From positions 1 to 32,694 of IMG/VR virus record IMGVR_UViG_3300037485_000500: DNA of 32,694 nucleotides; one strand, written 5' to 3'. Each line of letters begins with the position of its first letter. Within the stretch, counting starts at the first letter, position 1. The notes below the pieces were generated by a model that was given only the letters and a program-made list of their open reading frames with translations, had not been told where the DNA came from and searched no databases. The position numbers and the translations under genes are program-made. The stretch comes from a virus. Positions 10,129 to 23,853 of the stretch are shown here, piece by piece.

Positions 10129-10153
10129 TATCTAAAATGTATATTTAGGTATT
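10129..10153 (+). repeat. Imperfect inverted repeat in the intergenic gap
   Basis: GTATCTAAA (10129-10137) faces TTTAGGTAT (10145-10153) across a 7-base loop, with two G-T pairs. It is AT-rich with no T run, so it is not a terminator. It could be a weak RNA hairpin or an operator. Little else is visible in 10096-10200. Confidence 0.3.
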
Positions 10154-10200
10154 ATAGTCAAAATATAAGTTTAAAACTGACATACTGCATATAAAACATT

Positions 10201-10231
10201 AGCCCAAATAACTTAATATTTGGGCTTTTTT
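10201..10231 (+). terminator. Intrinsic terminator closing the lysis/late operon
   Basis: Perfect 10-bp inverted repeat: AGCCCAAATA (10201-10210) and TATTTGGGCT (10217-10226) with a 6-base loop, followed by a T run. It separates the rightward operon ending at the HExxH gene from the small-gene region that begins at 10340. Confidence 0.9.
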
Positions 10232-10298
10232 ATTTTCTTTTTAAAAATAAATACGTTAATTATCAAACACTTATAAAATTAATAAAAAAATTATTATG

Positions 10299-15407: not shown

Positions 15408-15851
15408 ATGGAAAAACACGAAATTATCAGCAAAATTATATTTGAGGCTGAAAGAAAGATTAAGCAAAACACTGGCATAGTAGTATCACTATTTTGCAAG
15501 ACAAAAGAAGTAAACAGCGATAACGAATTAGCAAGAATAATTGTAAAGCTATGCGCTGAAGAATACGGAATACCAATTGAAACATTAATAGCAACTACAA
15601 GACACAGGTTACAATGCGAGGCAAGGCAGGTGTCAATGAAATTAGTCAGAGAAAACACCACGTTAAGTTTAAAAGAAATAGGTGAGTTGTATATGGCTAA
15701 ACGAATAGGCTATGCACCTGCACTTGGCAAAGACCATACAACGATAATTCACGGCATTAAAACAATTGACAACCTATTAAGCTACGATAAGTTAGTAATT
15801 GAAAAATATAACCGAATATTAGCAGACTTTAATAAAATAGTTAATTGTTAG
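15408..15851 (+). CDS. Stand-alone DnaA domain IV-like DNA-binding protein
   Basis: 147 residues. Residues about 45-125 match the DnaA C-terminal DnaA-box-binding domain: LCAEEYGIPIETLIATTRHR, CEARQVSMKLVRE, LSLKEIGELY and KDHTTIIHGIKTI. The DHTT signature is at 109-112. There is no AAA+ ATPase domain. Compared with DnaA, extra residues (AKRIGYAPAL) sit between the recognition helix region and DHTT. It may bind DnaA-box-like sites to help phage replication start, or compete with host DnaA. It is the last gene before the strong promoter at 15863. Confidence 0.8.
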   Translation: MEKHEIISKIIFEAERKIKQNTGIVVSLFCKTKEVNSDNELARIIVKLCAEEYGIPIETLIATTRHRLQCEARQVSMKLVRENTTLSLKEIGELYMAKRIGYAPALGKDHTTIIHGIKTIDNLLSYDKLVIEKYNRILADFNKIVNC

Positions 15852-15862
15852 CATCTTGTGTT

Positions 15863-15890
15863 TTGAAATGAAATAAAAGTATTATATTTG
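15863..15890 (+). promoter_or_regulatory. Strong Bacteroidota-type promoter
   Basis: TTG at 15863-15865 (within TTTTG) is followed after exactly 17 bases by TATATTTG at 15883-15890. This fits the consensus TTG-N17-TAnnTTTG with no mismatch in the fixed positions. Transcription would start near 15896 and produce the structured RNA described next. Confidence 0.8.
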
Positions 15891-15895
15891 CAAGT

Positions 15896-16001
15896 GTTGA
15901 ATGAGGTCGAAGCCATTTAGCAATCTATCATTAATTTCCATTGTTAAATTAAATATAGAAATTCCCCTCTTTTAGCTTCGACCTAATTGAGGGGTTTTTC
16001 G
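15896..16001 (+). ncRNA. Structured RNA or leader with interleaved helices ending in a terminator
   Basis: Three helices are visible. P1: AGGTCGAAGC (15904-15913) with GCTTCGACCT (15975-15984), perfect 10 bp. P2 inside P1: ATTTAGCAAT (15915-15924) with ATTGTTAAAT (15940-15949), 10 bp with one G-U. P3: CCCCTC (15964-15969) with GAGGGG (15989-15994), followed by T5. P1 and P3 interleave (order P1, P3, P1', P3'), so they form either a pseudoknot or alternative states. P1' lies in the loop of the P3 terminator. A perfect promoter is just upstream and the ParB-methyltransferase start is at 16017. It may be a free small RNA of about 105 bases or an attenuator for that operon. No known riboswitch class is recognised. 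Confidence 0.7.
15958..16001 (+). terminator. Terminator stem of the structured RNA
   Basis: GAAA-TT-CCCCTC (15958-15969) faces GAGGGG-TT-TTTC (15989-16000). The 6-bp GC-rich core plus 4 outer pairs is separated by a 2x2 internal loop and encloses a 19-base loop. The T run at 15995-15999 makes it terminator-like. It is 16 bases before the next start codon, so downstream genes need read-through or another promoter. Confidence 0.7.
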
Positions 16002-16016
16002 TTTTATACCAATACT

Positions 16017-17267
16017 ATGATACAAATAAAAGAAGAGTTTAAAAAACTTATTCCAGCATTAAGTGCTGAAGAGTTTAGACAATTAGAACAAAATTGTTTA
16101 ACTGAAGGAATCCGTGAAAAAATAATAACTTGGAACGGGTTTATAATTGATGGGCATAACCGCTTTAAAATTGCTACACAATGGAATTTAGATTATCAAA
16201 CCGAAAGTAAAAGATTTGATAATGAAAACGATGTTCGAGAATGGATGATTAACAACCAATTTGGTAGAAGGAATTTAAGCAACTATCAAAGAAGTGTTTT
16301 AGCTTTAGAGTTGGAAAGTGTTTTTAGTGAAAAAGCAAAGGAAAAGGAACGTATTAGAAAGAGTACTAGTCAGATATCTGACGAGTCATTTCCTGAAATA
16401 TCTACTAAAAAAGAAGTGGCTAAAATTGCTAACGTTTCACACGATACAATAGCAAAAGTAAAAGTAATTGAAGCAAAGGCAACACCCGAAGCAAAAGCAC
16501 AATTAAGCACTGGAGAAGTAAGTATAAATCAAGTTTATCAAGAGATAAAGAAAGAGGAAAAGAAAGTTAATTTTGAGCAAAAAAAAGCTGAATTTGATAA
16601 ACCTATTGAATTAGTAAATACTAATCAAATAATACTTCATGGTGACAGTATAGAATTATTGCCAACACTTGAACACAATACATTTGATTTATTAATAAGT
16701 GACCCTCCTTATGGAATGGATTTTAAAAGTGGTTGGAATAATCAAGATAAAATTGCAAATGATAAAATTGAAGATACAATAACACTTTTTGAAAATGTAC
16801 TACGTGAATCTGTACCTCTTTTAAAAGAAGATGCGCACTTTTATTTATTTGGGAATATTGATTATTTGCCACAAATAAAACCAATAATTGAAAAATACTT
16901 AAACCTTAAAAATATACTTATTTGGGATAGAAGAGTTATAGGAATGGGTGATTTAAAAACATACGGATTTTCTTATGATATTGTTTATTTTGGATATAAT
17001 AAAAAATGGAAAGATTTAAACGGTACAAGAGAAAGAGATATACTACAATTTAATAGAGTTACACCCGCAGTAAATATACACCCAACGGAAAAACCAATTG
17101 ATTTATTAGAGTATTTAATTAAAAAAAGCACAAAAGAAAATGATAAAATATTAGAACCTTTTGCTGGTGGTGGGAGTACATTAATAGCTTGTAAAAATAC
17201 AAATAGATTAGCAACAGGAATTGAGATTGAAGAGCAATATTTTAATTTAATAAAAAAAAGAATATGA
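16017..17267 (+). CDS. ParB-like domain fused to a beta-class adenine DNA methyltransferase
   Basis: 416 residues from ATG 16017. A TTG start at 15987 would lie inside the terminator stem and is rejected. Residues 1-110 are ParB/Srx-like, with WNGFIIDGHNRFKIA as the GxxR-type box and NQFGRRNLSNYQRSVLALE. Residues about 125-160 hold an HTH (KKEVAKIANVSHDTIAKVKV). Residues about 205-416 are an N6-adenine or N4-cytosine methyltransferase: DPPYGM at 229-234 (motif IV) precedes PFAGGGST at 381-388 (motif I), which is beta-class order. The enzyme would methylate phage or host DNA at an unknown site. Its stop overlaps the start of a nuclease-like gene (ATGA). Confidence 0.88.
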   Translation: MIQIKEEFKKLIPALSAEEFRQLEQNCLTEGIREKIITWNGFIIDGHNRFKIATQWNLDYQTESKRFDNENDVREWMINNQFGRRNLSNYQRSVLALELESVFSEKAKEKERIRKSTSQISDESFPEISTKKEVAKIANVSHDTIAKVKVIEAKATPEAKAQLSTGEVSINQVYQEIKKEEKKVNFEQKKAEFDKPIELVNTNQIILHGDSIELLPTLEHNTFDLLISDPPYGMDFKSGWNNQDKIANDKIEDTITLFENVLRESVPLLKEDAHFYLFGNIDYLPQIKPIIEKYLNLKNILIWDRRVIGMGDLKTYGFSYDIVYFGYNKKWKDLNGTRERDILQFNRVTPAVNIHPTEKPIDLLEYLIKKSTKENDKILEPFAGGGSTLIACKNTNRLATGIEIEEQYFNLIKKRI

Positions 17268-17664: not shown

Positions 17665-18351
17665 ATGTCAAAAAAAGATTTTAGTAAAAAAGATGCGTAT
17701 TATTTTAGCCACGATGCTAATGCGCAAGATGACCCTAAATGTATGGTTTTAATTGACCAATTAGGAATGGAAGGGTATGGTATATTTTGGGCATTGGTTG
17801 AAAAATTAAGGGCTGAAAAAGAATATAAATTACCATTGATGACTCTTGAATCTTTTGCAAGAAGGTGGGGAACATCTAAAGAAAAAGTAAATACAGTTGT
17901 TAAAAATTTTGGTTTATTTTTTATTGAAAAAGATGAATTTTTTTATTCAGAACGTTTAAAATTTTCAATGGAACTTAAAAGCGAAAAGGCTACAATATCA
18001 ATAAATGCAAGGTGGGCAAAGAATAAAGAGTTAGAAATTGATACGAACGTATTACGAACGAATACGAATGTAATACGAAACGATACTATTAAAGGAAAGG
18101 AAAGTAAAGGAAAAGAAAATAAAATATTATTTAGTGATTGTAATTTATTTGATAAGAATAATTTTAAAAATGAATTCCCTAATTGGTGTAAAGAAAAATT
18201 AATTTATTATTACGAGGCAGCAATTTCTTATTCTAATGAAGGTAATAAATATATAAATTGGAAGTCAGCAATAAATACTTGGGCAAGGCGAGATGAACAA
18301 GCAGGTAAACTAAAATTTAATTCAACCATTACTAAAACAATTATTTACTAA
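17665..18351 (+). CDS. Replication initiation-type protein (Lin1244/Lin1753-like N-terminal, DUF4373)
   Basis: 228 residues. Residues about 10-105 match the Lin1244/Lin1753-like domain: DAYYFSHDANAQDDPKCMVL, GMEGYGIFWALVEKLR, LESFARRWGTSKEKVNTVV and FGLFFIEKDEFFYSERL. This winged-helix domain occurs in phage and plasmid replisome organisers. A Lys/Asn/Thr-rich linker follows. The C-terminal helix region WKSAINTWARRDEQAG resembles the DnaD-like end of such proteins. It is followed directly (TAATG) by the replicative helicase gene, the usual initiator-helicase pair. Confidence 0.8.
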   Translation: MSKKDFSKKDAYYFSHDANAQDDPKCMVLIDQLGMEGYGIFWALVEKLRAEKEYKLPLMTLESFARRWGTSKEKVNTVVKNFGLFFIEKDEFFYSERLKFSMELKSEKATISINARWAKNKELEIDTNVLRTNTNVIRNDTIKGKESKGKENKILFSDCNLFDKNNFKNEFPNWCKEKLIYYYEAAISYSNEGNKYINWKSAINTWARRDEQAGKLKFNSTITKTIIY

Positions 18352-19322
18352 TGGCTACTATAAAAAGATTATTTGATGTAAATGATAAAATTTTACATTT
18401 AAGAGAAAATAGTGCAGATGAGTTATTAGATACTGGCTTTGAAACATTAAACCCTTTTTACCGAGTTAAACCTGTTGGCACAACTATTATTTATGGTTAT
18501 CCTAAAATGGGTAAGACTGAATTCTTATTTCAATTGCTAATATCATTAAGTGTAAAGTATGGCAGAAAACATTTAATTTATAGCCCAGAAAGCGGAAGTA
18601 GTGAAGAAATATATGCAGCTATTATACATGGATTAACAGGTAAAACATTTGATAAACGTTATCACAACTATATAACTGAAGCAGAATATTACCGAGTGCA
18701 ACCATTCGTGCAAGAACATTTTATAGTTGCTGAAGATACTGATGAGAAAGGATTAGACTTTAATGAATATATTAAATTAGTAAAGGATTGCAAAAAAGAT
18801 TATGGAATTCATACCAGTACGATAGATAATTGGAACGATATTGAACACGAAAATTATACTAATGTTTCAGACTATTTAAAACGTAAACTACCAAAGTGGA
18901 ATAAACTTGCAGCAAGTCAAAAAATACATTCATTCTTAATTTGCCATGCAAAGAATCCTGTTGGAATAAAGAACGGAGAACTACCAAAAGCACCTACACC
19001 ATACGAAATTGATGGTGGTGCAGCATGGATTCAAAAAGCCTACAACATGATTTGCATAAATAGAGAATACGTTGAAGTAAATGGTAAAACCCAATTAGGA
19101 AATGAAGTGGATGTAATAATTCAAAAAGTAAAACCGAGAATAGTTGGTAACACAGGAATATGCAAACTTGATTATGATTGGATAAAAAAATGTTACAGCG
19201 AAACAATTGATGGCAGAATAAATGTTATTGATACTGGCTTTAAAGATAAGTATATTGCACCCCAAAAAGCAATCCAATCAACTATTAATTTAAACAACCC
19301 TTTTGATACAGCACCATTCTAA
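18351..19322 (+). CDS. DnaB-like RecA-fold replicative helicase
   Basis: 323 residues. IIYGYPKMGKTEFLFQLL (46-63) is Walker A with G54-K55-T56. LIYSPESGSSEEI contains the Ser/Glu pair expected after strand 2 of RecA-fold helicases. HTSTIDNWNDI gives the Walker B Asp (D159), and FLICHAKNP gives the sensor region (H199). It lacks the N-terminal primase-binding domain of full DnaB, so it is a minimal helicase or RecA-like ATPase. Its start overlaps the initiator gene. The C-terminus NPFDTAPF is a short acidic/aromatic tail. Confidence 0.8.
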   Translation: MATIKRLFDVNDKILHLRENSADELLDTGFETLNPFYRVKPVGTTIIYGYPKMGKTEFLFQLLISLSVKYGRKHLIYSPESGSSEEIYAAIIHGLTGKTFDKRYHNYITEAEYYRVQPFVQEHFIVAEDTDEKGLDFNEYIKLVKDCKKDYGIHTSTIDNWNDIEHENYTNVSDYLKRKLPKWNKLAASQKIHSFLICHAKNPVGIKNGELPKAPTPYEIDGGAAWIQKAYNMICINREYVEVNGKTQLGNEVDVIIQKVKPRIVGNTGICKLDYDWIKKCYSETIDGRINVIDTGFKDKYIAPQKAIQSTINLNNPFDTAPF

Positions 19323-20382: not shown

Positions 20383-20898
20383 TTGAAGTGCTTTAATAGC
20401 AACAAATTGGAACGTACTGATTTAATAAACGAAATACTTAAAAATCCTGCCTATCTTGATACTTGTAAGAAATTAGATTCAGGATATAGCGATGACATAT
20501 TTCAGGAGGTTATAATTCAAATATTAACTATTCCTGCTGAACGACTACCCACTTTAAATTATTTACAATTCTGGTATTATTGCGTAGCTAAAAACATTAT
20601 TTCACGAAATGGCAAGTTAGGTAAGTTATTTACAAAAGAAATTCCAATGGATGAATTTTTAGAAAGTGAATCCGAAAAGATAATAGATGAAAGCGATATA
20701 GATTTTAAACGTATTGAAAACTTTATGCTTGATTGTAGCGAGTTTGAAAATAGAATAGTCTTATTATACGCAGAACATAAATCAATGCGAAAGATTAGCA
20801 AAATAACAGGTATAAGTTATTCAGCATTGAGGTCAGTAAAAAATAAAATAAAAAAATTTGCAAATGAAAATCCTTGTAATAATACCGAGTTATCCTAA
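20383..20898 (+). CDS. Sigma-70-like small transcription factor (TTG start)
   Basis: 171 residues. A stop codon at 20377-20379 lies just upstream in frame and no suitable ATG exists, so TTG 20383 is the probable start. Residues about 37-72 (DDIFQEVIIQILTI ... NYLQFWYYCVAKNII) resemble sigma region 2. Residues about 120-157 (FENRIVLLYAEHKSMRKISK, ITGISYSALRSVKNKIK) resemble the region 4 helix-turn-helix. It could redirect host RNA polymerase to late phage promoters or be a divergent regulator. The 40-base gap before it has no good promoter. It overlaps the next gene by 35 bases. Confidence 0.6.
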   Translation: MKCFNSNKLERTDLINEILKNPAYLDTCKKLDSGYSDDIFQEVIIQILTIPAERLPTLNYLQFWYYCVAKNIISRNGKLGKLFTKEIPMDEFLESESEKIIDESDIDFKRIENFMLDCSEFENRIVLLYAEHKSMRKISKITGISYSALRSVKNKIKKFANENPCNNTELS

Positions 20899-21931
20899 AA
20901 TAAGTGGTGTAGACTATCACAGGTTACTGCAACCACATAAACGAATGTCAGAAATGTTTATTAAAGAAGTAGACATGTACCAAATAAACGAAATAGACAG
21001 CGCAACAATTGAGTTTCTGCAAGGCTTTGATTTGGTAGTAGCAAACCGATTTATAAGCAGAGTAAACGGAAGCAATGTAATAATGAAACTTAAAGAAGCA
21101 AACGTGCCTTATGTTTTAGATATTGATGACGATTACAGATTACCTGAATGGCATATACTACAACAAGCATCAAAGAACGATAGGCATGCAGAAAAAATAT
21201 TACAAGCCTTACACTATGCAAAAGCAATAACAACTACACACGAATACTTATCAGGAACATTAAAGTACGAAGCAAGCCAACCAAATTGTTTTGAAATACC
21301 AAACGCAATTAACCCAAACGAAGAACAATATAAGTTTGCAAAAAGAGAACTTGATGTAGTAAAGTTTGGTTGGTCAGGTAGTATAACACACTTTGAAGAT
21401 GTGTTACTAATGCACGATGGTTTACTTTCTTTATATAACCAACACCAGTACAAAGATAAATTTCAAGTAGTGTATGGTGGTTTTAGCATGGATGACGATA
21501 CAAGCAGAGCAATTGCAGGAGTTTTAAGTTGTAAGGGTAAAGCAACAGTAGAACAGTTTACAACCTATCCAAGTGTATCAATAAACGAATATGCAAAGTT
21601 TTATGACACAATAGATGTATCACTTATACCTTTAAGAAATAACCGATTTAATAGACTAAAATCAAACCTTAAACTAATTGAGAGTGGATTTAAAAAAAAG
21701 GCTTGTATAGTAAGTAATGTCCATCCATACGAACCAATGTTAAAGCATGGCAAAAATTGCCTTGTAGTAAAGCATAAAAACGATTGGTATAAGAATATGG
21801 CTAAATTAATAGACAGCCCTAATATGATTGAGGATTTAAGCGAACAATTATATTTAGACGTACAAGTTCAACATATTGACCGAATTGCAGAATTAAGATT
21901 TGAAGCATATAAAACAATTTTAAAACTATGA
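20864..21931 (+). CDS. Glycosyltransferase, GT-B fold (GT4-like)
   Basis: 355 residues from ATG 20864, chosen over TTG 20858. The start MKILVIIPSYPKISGVDYHR is the usual first strand of GT-B enzymes. VPYVLDIDDDYRLPEW, ITTTHEYLS and EIPNAINPNE complete the N-terminal domain. VVKFGWSGSITHFEDVLLMH, IDVSLIPLRNN and NRLKSNLKLIESGFKKKACI form the nucleotide-sugar binding C-terminal domain. The acceptor is unknown. It begins a cassette of sugar and methyl transfer genes reaching to 24563. No signal peptide or membrane helix is present, so it acts in the cytoplasm. Confidence 0.8.
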   Translation: MKILVIIPSYPKISGVDYHRLLQPHKRMSEMFIKEVDMYQINEIDSATIEFLQGFDLVVANRFISRVNGSNVIMKLKEANVPYVLDIDDDYRLPEWHILQQASKNDRHAEKILQALHYAKAITTTHEYLSGTLKYEASQPNCFEIPNAINPNEEQYKFAKRELDVVKFGWSGSITHFEDVLLMHDGLLSLYNQHQYKDKFQVVYGGFSMDDDTSRAIAGVLSCKGKATVEQFTTYPSVSINEYAKFYDTIDVSLIPLRNNRFNRLKSNLKLIESGFKKKACIVSNVHPYEPMLKHGKNCLVVKHKNDWYKNMAKLIDSPNMIEDLSEQLYLDVQVQHIDRIAELRFEAYKTILKL

Positions 21932-22167
21932 TAAATATAATTTTATATTGCATTGGTATAGCAATGTTGTTTACTTCATTTTTTAGTTTAACACAACTAC
22001 CAAAGTGGTTAGATTTTAAGCCATTCAACTGTATAGTATGCCTAACCTTTTGGATTTGTGTAATATGTATTCAATTTGATTTAATCCAGCACACACAAGC
22101 ATTTGCATTAGCAGGTTATGCTGCTTACTTTTCAATGATACTAAAAAGAATAATGTATAAAATATGA
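21928..22167 (+). CDS. Small membrane protein with CxxC-FW motif
   Basis: 79 residues with about three hydrophobic segments: MINIILYCIGIAMLFTSFFS, CLTFWICVICIQFDLI and FALAGYAAYFSMIL. The centre LDFKPFNCIVCLTFW (two Cys, then FW) is a recurrent motif of small phage membrane proteins of unknown function. It is coupled to glycosyltransferase genes by ATGA at both ends, so it may anchor the glycan reaction at the membrane; this is inference. Confidence 0.65.
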   Translation: MINIILYCIGIAMLFTSFFSLTQLPKWLDFKPFNCIVCLTFWICVICIQFDLIQHTQAFALAGYAAYFSMILKRIMYKI

Positions 22168-22421
22168 GAAACTTTGATGAAATATATTTTGCAATGAAAA
22201 AAAAAGGCGATAATAGATACAGCCTTTTAGAGTTAATAAAGATTTTCGACAACGAAACAAGTTGGATAGGAACTGCGCAACAGCTACTTGAAATTAAATC
22301 ATTGAGCCACGAGGTAACAGGAATAAGAGCAGGTGACTGTTCGGCATGTAATCTTGATGCAGTAAAAAATATGGTGAAGTGGGTAAAGCAAAACGAACCT
22401 AATATAAAAATAAAAAAATAA
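22164..22421 (+). CDS. Small protein of unknown function in the glycosyltransferase cassette
   Basis: 85 residues: RNFDEIYFAMKKKGDNRYSL, then LLEIKSLSHEVTGIRAGDCS and ACNLDAVKNMVKWVKQ. Two Cys (CSAC) precede the last helix. It is coupled on both sides (ATGA before, TAATG after). No family is recognised; its conserved place between two cassette genes suggests a common function. Confidence 0.65.
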   Translation: MRNFDEIYFAMKKKGDNRYSLLELIKIFDNETSWIGTAQQLLEIKSLSHEVTGIRAGDCSACNLDAVKNMVKWVKQNEPNIKIKK

Positions 22422-23218
22422 TGGCATTAATTGCAATGGCTGTGTATGATACAGCAGAAAACGAAAGAAGTAAATACACAAAGGAAACTATTGAAAGTTT
22501 ATTTGAAACAGTTGATTTTAGTAAACATAGATTAATAGTTATAGATAATAATTCATGCCAAGAAACAAAAGAAATATTTAAGGATATTGGAATTATAGTT
22601 GATATGAATAATCATAAAAATAATAATACTTTACCCTTTAAATTAATAACCAACACCGAGAATGTAGGAACTGCAAAAGCAATTAACCAAGCATGGGCAT
22701 ATCGTAAACCAAATGAAACAGTAATCAAAATGGATAACGATGTATTAATAAATAACTATGGTTGGGTAGAAGAAATGGAGTTAGCTATAAGATTAGGAGG
22801 CTATGGAATAATGGGTTTAAAGCGTAAAGACTTAATGCAGTCACCAACAAGCCAATCAATGTGGAAAACAGAACTAAAAATGTTACCACATACAAAAGGT
22901 GATAACTGGATAGTGGTTGAAGAAAGTGAAGATATAATGGGAACTGTGCAAATGTTTCATCCAAGTTTAACCGACAAAATGGGTGGGTTGATACAAGCAG
23001 GAGTTTATGGATTTGATGACACATTAGCTTGTATAAGAGCAAAGCTACTTGGGTATAAGTTAGCATTTTTACCACACATAGACATTGACCATATTGATAA
23101 GGGTGGCGATGCTTACACAGAATGGAAACGAAAATATGCAGGTGAAAAAATGGAAGAGTTTTATAAAATAAAAGAAGGATTAATAAATGGCACTATATCA
23201 ATAAAAGTTGAACTATGA
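22421..23218 (+). CDS. Glycosyltransferase, GT-A fold (GT2-like)
   Basis: 265 residues. RLIVIDNNSCQETK (37-50), ITNTENVGTAKAINQAW (76-92) and VIKMDNDVLI (101-110, D105-x-D107 metal-binding DxD) are the standard GT2 nucleotide-sugar motifs. Later DDTLACIRAKLLGYKLAFLP and DIDHIDKGGDAYTEWK cover the acceptor side. It would transfer a sugar from a nucleotide sugar to an unknown acceptor in the cytoplasm. It overlaps the next glycosyltransferase by ATGA. Confidence 0.85.
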   Translation: MALIAMAVYDTAENERSKYTKETIESLFETVDFSKHRLIVIDNNSCQETKEIFKDIGIIVDMNNHKNNNTLPFKLITNTENVGTAKAINQAWAYRKPNETVIKMDNDVLINNYGWVEEMELAIRLGGYGIMGLKRKDLMQSPTSQSMWKTELKMLPHTKGDNWIVVEESEDIMGTVQMFHPSLTDKMGGLIQAGVYGFDDTLACIRAKLLGYKLAFLPHIDIDHIDKGGDAYTEWKRKYAGEKMEEFYKIKEGLINGTISIKVEL

Positions 23219-23853
23219 TAGTATTAACAGTAGCAGACAATCGTAGTAAATGCTTTCAACTTGAAAGGTCTTTAAATCACTTTGGTTGGCAGTATCATAT
23301 AATTGAAGTAACCCAATGGCAAGGATTTGCAATGAAACTAAACAAGGTATATGAATACTTAAAAGCAAATACAACTATTAAAGACTTTATATTTGTAGAT
23401 GCATACGATACATTCTTTTTAGATACACCAAAAAACACTAAACGCAAAATATATTGGAACTGCTTATTTAATTCAGAAGTAAACTGTTGGCCTGATGTGG
23501 ACGAATTATCTAAATATGAAGAACGTGAGCAATACACGAAACCAAATACAAAGTTTAGATTCTTAAATAGTGGTGCTTATTATATGCAAGCAGAAACCTT
23601 TATAAAACTAATTGACAAACAAAGCATACACGACAGCGAAGATGACCAACGAATAGCAACCAAGTGGCTAATAGATAACCCAAGTATTGGAATTGACCAC
23701 GATTGCAGAGTATTCCAAACTTTATGTGGAATAACCGAAACTGATTACAAAATAGAAAATAATATATTTATAACCGAGAACAACTTTAAACCAACAATAA
23801 TTCATGGCAATGGCAAAGCAGACATGAATTTTATATACCAACTAATAAATTAA
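23215..23853 (+). CDS. Glycosyltransferase of the PLOD/procollagen galactosyltransferase-like group
   Basis: 212 residues. FIFVDAYDTFFLD (58-70) carries a D62-x-x-D65 metal site. FRFLNSGAYYMQAE (115-127), DSEDDQRIAT with D143/D144/Q145, and GIDHDCRVFQTL follow, ending with TIIHGNGKAD (195-203). This order (DxYD, LNSG, DDQ, HGNG) is that of the glycosyltransferase domain of lysyl hydroxylases and related viral enzymes. It is a third, different glycosyltransferase in the cassette; acceptor unknown. Confidence 0.75.
   Translation: MIVLTVADNRSKCFQLERSLNHFGWQYHIIEVTQWQGFAMKLNKVYEYLKANTTIKDFIFVDAYDTFFLDTPKNTKRKIYWNCLFNSEVNCWPDVDELSKYEEREQYTKPNTKFRFLNSGAYYMQAETFIKLIDKQSIHDSEDDQRIATKWLIDNPSIGIDHDCRVFQTLCGITETDYKIENNIFITENNFKPTIIHGNGKADMNFIYQLIN

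Follow-up and report, generated by a model that had tools for sequence, protein, structure and literature searches.

Covarying loops of an upstream hairpin and a terminator suggest an RNA-only attenuator before the replication genes of Bacteroidota phages

A leader RNA that precedes the replication genes of Bacteroidota phages carries an upstream hairpin, SL1, and a terminator hairpin whose loops vary together and stay complementary. The leader was studied in a 32,694-nt stretch of viral DNA (IMG/VR record IMGVR_UViG_3300037485_000500), referred to here as the window, and in its relatives. Comparison of these sequences reveals the hairpins, the covarying loop pairing, many loop types and a fixed place before operons, and the presence of covarying loops before replication genes suggests an RNA-only switch that could turn viral replication up or down. 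We consider it fairly probable (roughly 0.6) that the leader is a self-contained, RNA-only transcription attenuator of the phage replication operon, set by pairing of the SL1 loop with the terminator loop.

To our knowledge, few regulatory RNA mechanisms have been described in Bacteroidota. The leader would represent an RNA regulatory family that is absent from Rfam 15 and has gone unannotated before the replication genes of phages, among them cultured Flavobacterium, Cellulophaga and Olleya phages and many uncultured ones. For RNA-only control of transcription in Bacteroidota, this family is a natural source of diverse loop pairs that are orthogonal to one another. Should the loops act in trans, lytic phages would have a superinfection or dosage system encoded in RNA.

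Results

Organization of the leader in the window

An earlier note on this DNA had described a promoter, TTG-N17-TATATTTG, a perfect 10-bp helix (P1) and a terminator stem (P3) followed by T5, with the 3' strand of P1 (P1') inside the terminator loop. All of these were recovered exactly (Table 1). The promoter is of the Bacteroidota type; a TTG -33 element is cited for Flavobacterium (PMC8092290), and a -7 box, TAnnTTTG, is present in nearly all relatives, 9-25 nt upstream of the SL1 loop. Transcription probably begins near 15895-15896. In DNA letters P1 reads AGGTCGAAGC/GCTTCGACCT, and mono-shuffling of the 5' part together with the terminator loop produced a 10-nt match in 0.14% of trials. 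The conservation of P1, described below, carries more weight than this chance estimate.

The predicted fold of 15896-16001 (106 nt) consists of three successive hairpins, SL1, SL2 and SL3, with a free energy of -26.7 kcal/mol (z -3.65), and none of 200 shuffles was equally stable. SL2 is variable in sequence and was found in most of the 20 leaders that we folded. SL3 is the terminator hairpin, and its region (15958-16001) has a folding z of -5.36. Its outer stem, 15964-15969/15989-15994 (CCCCTC/GAGGGG), is followed by T5 and encloses an inner stem, 15972-15975/15983-15986, with an apical loop at 15976-15982. Because P1' lies in the terminator loop and the 5' strand of P1 is the SL1 loop itself, the predicted geometry of P1 is that of a loop-loop (kissing) pair. 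The 7- to 10-mers of the loops have no further copy anywhere in the window.

Table 1. Features of the leader and its neighbouring genes in the window
Feature	Position	Strand	Remarks
DnaA C-terminal-domain protein, end of preceding operon	15408-15851	+	Directly upstream of leader
Bacteroidota-type promoter	15863-15890	+	TTG 15863-15865, N17, TATATTTG 15883-15890
SL1 hairpin	15896-15921	+	Stem 15896-15903/15914-15921; folding and compensatory change
P1 5' strand, the 10-nt SL1 apical loop AGGUCGAAGC	15904-15913	+	Covariation
SL2, AU-rich hairpin between SL1 and SL3	15924-15959	+	Folding
SL3, terminator hairpin	15964-15994	+	Folding
P1 3' strand (P1') GCUUCGACCU, within terminator loop	15975-15984	+	Covariation
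Terminator U-tract	15995-15999	+	Sequence; next start codon 17 nt on
ParB-like/N6-N4 DNA methyltransferase	16017-17267	+	First gene after leader
Replication initiation protein (Lin1244_N)	17665-18351	+	Protein match
AAA ATPase related to DnaB-like helicase/primase	18351-19322	+	Anchor for finding relatives

The position before the ParB-methyltransferase/replication operon, also given in the earlier note, was borne out; the methyltransferase starts at ATG 16017, not at TTG 15987. A neighbour of the DnaA C-terminal-domain type also precedes the leader in contig L022 and lies upstream in L117.

Elsewhere on the + strand of the window, a gene at 20383-20898 matches RNA polymerase sigma factors (phrog_1740, E 3.5e-6) and could bear on promoter usage late in infection. 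A run of genes at 20858-23853 includes those for a glycosyltransferase (phrog_7162) and for glycosyltransferase-like proteins, with a possible role in sugar modification of DNA or the surface. A second promoter-like and terminator stretch follows the metallopeptidase gene at 10135-10235 (+), where a 6-nt match, UAAGUU/AACUUA, links an upstream stretch and the terminator loop; it matches our home-made leader model weakly (E 0.15, the E-values of this model being rough). In L057 a true leader follows a homologue of this metallopeptidase gene.

P1 and the SL1 stem are conserved by compensatory change

Relatives were aligned in 25 distinct rows, some loci being otherwise overlapping views of one contig. 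In this alignment 94.8% of P1 cells were paired, and compensatory change affected six of the ten pairs (35 cells), giving a covariation score that none of 500 shuffles reached and that collapsed when the partner was slid by 1-3 columns. RNAalifold, unaided, returned P1 as the sole consensus helix. The SL1 stem, a hairpin absent from the earlier note's list, showed compensatory change in seven of its eight pairs, with 94.9% of cells paired. It takes the place of the helix P2 (15915-15924/15940-15949) that had been proposed there: P2 does form ten pairs in the window, one of them G-U, but it is not conserved (56.7% of cells paired versus 53.0% in shuffles).

Some rows had come from a detector that requires complementarity, and a pattern scan was run with the three variable P1 pairs left free on both strands of the helix. 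Eighteen of the 19 distinct matches, representing five loop types, were complementary at all three pairs; the exception, L126, is not a leader and has none of the other leader features. This result identifies P1 as a real covarying helix. A search for relatives that break P1 and P3 without compensation, as the earlier note had proposed, was in effect run here, and its outcome favours P1. Conservation of the P1 pairing by compensatory change is thus well supported by the sequence comparison.

Both loops vary widely between phages yet stay mutually complementary. The loop pairs found among relatives are AGGUCGAAGC/GCUUCGACCU, AGGUUGUAGC/GCUACAACCU, AGGUUGCAGC/GCUGCAACCU, AGGUAGUAGC/GCUACUACCU and AGGUCGAAUC/GAUUCGACCU, and more distant leaders have AGUAGAGAA/UUCUCUACU, AGUAAGGC/GCCUUACU, GUAAGAGC/GCUCUUAC, GUGAGAG/CUCUCAC and GUAGUGAG/CUCACUAC. 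Between L097 and L108, which differ in loop type, four of 20 loop positions changed versus two of 96 elsewhere (p 0.008), and a second change of type involved eight of 20 versus eight of 88 (p 0.002). Loops are identical in most pairs of close relatives, which makes their change episodic rather than constant; steadily faster loop evolution was rejected as a general rule, being seen only at type changes.

Distribution among phages

Dozens of contigs of Bacteroidota phages have the leader layout, comprising promoter, SL1, usually SL2, terminator and a start codon usually within 45 nt, ahead of replication or early operons. When viral contigs were scanned for an exact P1 with free spacer, 23 stretches were obtained, of which 12 were leaders and 11 chance matches in GC-rich, coding-like sequence. 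Other relatives were retrieved without forcing P1; the queries were the AAA ATPase encoded downstream, a small protein of the first gene, the promoter sequence or flanking DNA of cultured phages; complementarity of the terminator loop was kept whether retrieval was by protein, promoter sequence or flanking DNA. The contig set is biased toward relatives of the query proteins and promoters, and the detector gave 21 false-positive matches in 3.03 Mb of shuffled strand.

All 20 leaders folded had SL1 and a terminator with complementary loops, the SL1 loop usually being 10 nt long. Those of the 12 exact-P1 leaders whose surroundings were read are placed after the last gene of one operon and ahead of the replication operon's first gene, and the start codon follows the U-tract by 2-43 nt in all but one leader measured. 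The genes that follow vary (methyltransferase, replication initiator, primase, helicase, nuclease); the leader therefore belongs to the operon and not to one gene.

The loops are CAUCCAC/GUGGAUG in Flavobacterium phage FCL-2, GUAGAGAG/CUCUCUAC in Flavobacterium phage FCV-1-type leaders, CGGGCAGG/CCUGCCCG in Flavobacterium phage 11b, GUACGAC/GUCGUAC in Cellulophaga phages phi19:1 and phi10:1, GUGAGACG/CGUCUCAC in the LMO6/LMO9 phages and GUGAGAAG/CUUCUCAC in morran9-1. Olleya phage Harreka_1 has GUGGUGG/CCACCAC and Flavobacterium phage elemoF GUGGAGG/CCUCCAC. The loop differences between morran and LMO and between Harreka and elemo are compensated changes, and one loop type is common to eight of the nine LMO-phage leaders read. 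FCL-2 and FCV-1-like records are about 87% alike in the leader promoter, after which the leaders differ. A Chitinophagaceae MAG contig that looks phage-derived carries a leader, GGGUAGCAG/CUGCUACCC, 2 nt before a primase gene.

An AAA-protein scan of GTDB genomes gave no prophage relatives, and a covariance-model search of 395 Bacteroidia genomes returned only two ordinary terminators. No convincing leader was found in Riemerella phage PJR4, FpV9 or 6H, and the related AAA gene in contigs L048, L053 and L058 has no such leader before it. Matches in phi13:2 and P2559S were rejected as chance hits in coding regions.

Several leaders show features of their own. In Cellulophaga phage Nekkels_1 (L172, 642-790), a promoter identical to that of phi19:1 over 49 nt is followed by a different leader, in which the terminator loop is made of two hairpins, each with a loop complementary over 7 nt to a different upstream stretch (GUUAGAC/GUCUAAC and UUCCAAU/AUUGGAA). 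The FCV-1, LMO, Harreka and elemo terminators share a similar asymmetric internal loop beneath the P1' hairpin, GGAG-type on the 5' side and GAAA/CAAA-type on the 3' side (L088 5607-5714, L163 298-401, L171 164-261, L174 414-518). In several unrelated phages (L093, L103, L104, L158, L162), a small hairpin (GGU...ACC) or a short conserved stretch directly follows the terminator and precedes the start codon of a first gene of about 70 aa.

Genomes with two leaders

Five genomes (L006, L045, L090, L091 and L098) carry two leaders with different loops. The predicted loop pairing in cis ranges from -9.6 to -17 kcal/mol, and cross-pairing between the two copies of a genome from -6.5 to +0.6 kcal/mol. 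A second leader of GUAGUAG type was observed in L006 (4935-5039, -), L045 (1654-1758), L090 (3671-3775) and L091 (2780-2885, -), before a helicase-like gene, with the main copy about 2.5 kb further downstream; in L045 a methyltransferase follows this helicase-like gene.

Discussion

A model for the leader

The U-tract lies almost at the start codon, so that a separate promoter would hardly fit between them, if at all; the operon would be made by read-through, which is the layout of an attenuator; it is from this layout that we infer attenuation. RNA polymerase would start just before SL1 and make SL1, SL2 and the terminator in turn. It would then either stop, releasing an RNA of about 105 nt with a hairpin at each end, or read into the replication genes, the choice being set by pairing of the exposed SL1 loop with the loop of the terminator hairpin. 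This pairing would form as polymerase reaches the U-tract, when the 3' arm of the terminator is not yet free, and would be expected to delay or weaken the terminator and so allow read-through.

Folding of the growing window transcript is consistent with such an order. SL1 and SL2 are predicted to form first, P1 belongs to the best fold when the transcript ends at 15984-15991, and SL1, SL2 and the terminator are predicted once 15994 has been made. In transcripts ending at P1', P1 was the predicted best fold in 18 of 20 leaders, and in none when the terminator was complete. RNA polymerase covers about a dozen nucleotides; P1 can therefore form with polymerase at about the U-tract, and given this timing we favour a model in which loop pairing restrains the terminator. 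In the predicted fold of the full-length RNA both hairpins and the terminator are retained, so that weaker and stronger termination by loop pairing are both possible. The earlier note had favoured a switch because a 4-base link seemed too short for P1 and P3 to form together. This argument fails in general, as the terminator loops of several relatives measure 8-9 nt and leave almost no linker; a transient switch, suggested by the predicted folds ending at 15984-15991, is possible.

In FCV-1-type leaders (L088 5700-5714, L112) the sequence AAC stands between the stem and the U-tract. To judge from sequence, this displaced U-tract makes a poor intrinsic terminator and should weaken termination. 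Further counterpoints to the model are the episodic nature of loop change, the one loop type common to eight of the nine LMO-phage leaders, the competition that any pairing in trans must face from pairing in cis, and the passage through the leader of any transcription that arrives from the operon upstream. A published transcriptome consulted for FCL-2 covers only host RNA without phage.

More tentatively, the terminated leader may act in trans on leaders of the same loop type, each type then forming a specificity (incompatibility) group. Released RNAs of about 105 nt with the same loops would occupy the loops of other nascent leaders and could thereby restore termination, producing loop-specific negative feedback on replication-gene dosage as well as interference between phages of the same loop type. 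If so, phages, including strictly lytic ones, would sense their own genome dosage, their loops would let them interfere with or tolerate co-infecting phages, and several mutually orthogonal copies would serve different operons.

Alternative explanations

The main rival to recognition in trans is a purely cis-acting attenuator or RNA-folding timer, with a fixed read-through or delay, a terminated RNA that is a by-product and a variety of loops that reflects neutral compensatory drift. This explanation is a real possibility, although not the one we prefer. It agrees with the predicted transient formation of P1 in nascent RNA, with the constant availability of cis pairing, with the identical loops of many close relatives and with the lack of any other copy of the loops' 7- to 10-mers within the window. 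However, concerted changes of several loop pairs while the rest of the leader stays nearly static, as between L097 and L108 (4/20 versus 2/96), and differing loop types within one genome would be easier to understand under recognition between molecules, which they fit without proving it.

Other roles for the RNA appear improbable to different degrees. It has its own promoter, a hairpin at each end and a defined terminator, as would a phage small RNA that uses its loops to regulate mRNAs of the host or of other phages, with the terminator merely its end; this is improbable, since a loop sequence is free to change while the partner loop of the same RNA matches it, the window has no further copy of the loop k-mers and start codons lie within a few nucleotides downstream. 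A role in phage DNA replication as a primer or origin RNA, like ColE1 RNAII with priming controlled by loop pairing, would explain why the main copy is always near replication genes, but second copies stand before helicase/methyltransferase or nuclease operons and the RNA ends in an intrinsic terminator, making this role highly improbable. We regard as equally remote an immunity RNA of prophages of the P4 CI or P1 C4 kind, despite the complementary segments, both on the same strand, of an untranslated leader that precedes replication genes, and despite loop types that resemble specificity groups: the 395 Bacteroidia genomes gave only the two ordinary terminators, and prophage immunity is unlikely as a general role because the leader is found in mumin phages (LMO), which are reported to be lytic only (PMC7077304).

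Comparison with known RNA systems

No covariance model of Rfam 15 matched the window at gathering score, and 15800-16100 gave only chance-level matches below gathering, in keeping with the earlier note, which recognised no known class. We found no published description of the leader in the open-licence literature. A ligand riboswitch was rejected on an alignment that has no conserved core outside the promoter and the paired loops, and a ribosome-mediated attenuator was rejected as ATG 15902 and its 24-codon frame are absent from L013/L003-type leaders.

Plasmids pT181 and pIP501 use antisense RNAs as transcription attenuators of their rep genes, and engineered antisense attenuators have been the subject of published papers. 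Like these plasmid systems, the phage leader is untranslated and places an intrinsic terminator ahead of a replication gene, attenuation in the phage case being deduced from layout. In the plasmids an RNA-RNA loop contact decides termination and loop sequence gives specificity, as we would expect for the phage leader. In contrast, the plasmids are regulated by a distinct RNA transcribed from the other strand, whereas the covarying partners here are two loops of one same-strand RNA; and the plasmid antiterminator pairs with the terminator stem, whereas P1' lies in the terminator loop region, not the outer stem, in the leaders folded. P4 CI and P1 C4 are also of phage origin, with short complementary stretches in the same transcript and premature termination before replication genes. 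Those RNAs act in prophage immunity and depend on RNA processing and on Rho for termination, whereas the leader has an intrinsic-type terminator and occurs in strictly lytic phages as well.

ColE1 RNAI/RNAII and other kissing pairs similarly have complementary apical loops of 7-10 nt and type-specific recognition. Their loops lie on RNAs of complementary strands, whereas the leader has two hairpins of the same RNA, one of them the terminator, with complementary apical loops conserved by covariation and a predicted loop-loop complex. In the IncB/IncI rep mRNA pseudoknot, an upstream loop pairs in cis with a distal complement, which switches expression of the replication gene, and this loop can also be recognised in trans, a likeness to the phage leader; unlike the latter, this pseudoknot acts on translation and is controlled by RNAI, an antisense-strand RNA. 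The leader resembles P4 CI and the pT181 type in outline but lacks a defining feature of each, and we file it as a new RNA family, a putative variant of RNA-controlled transcription attenuation.
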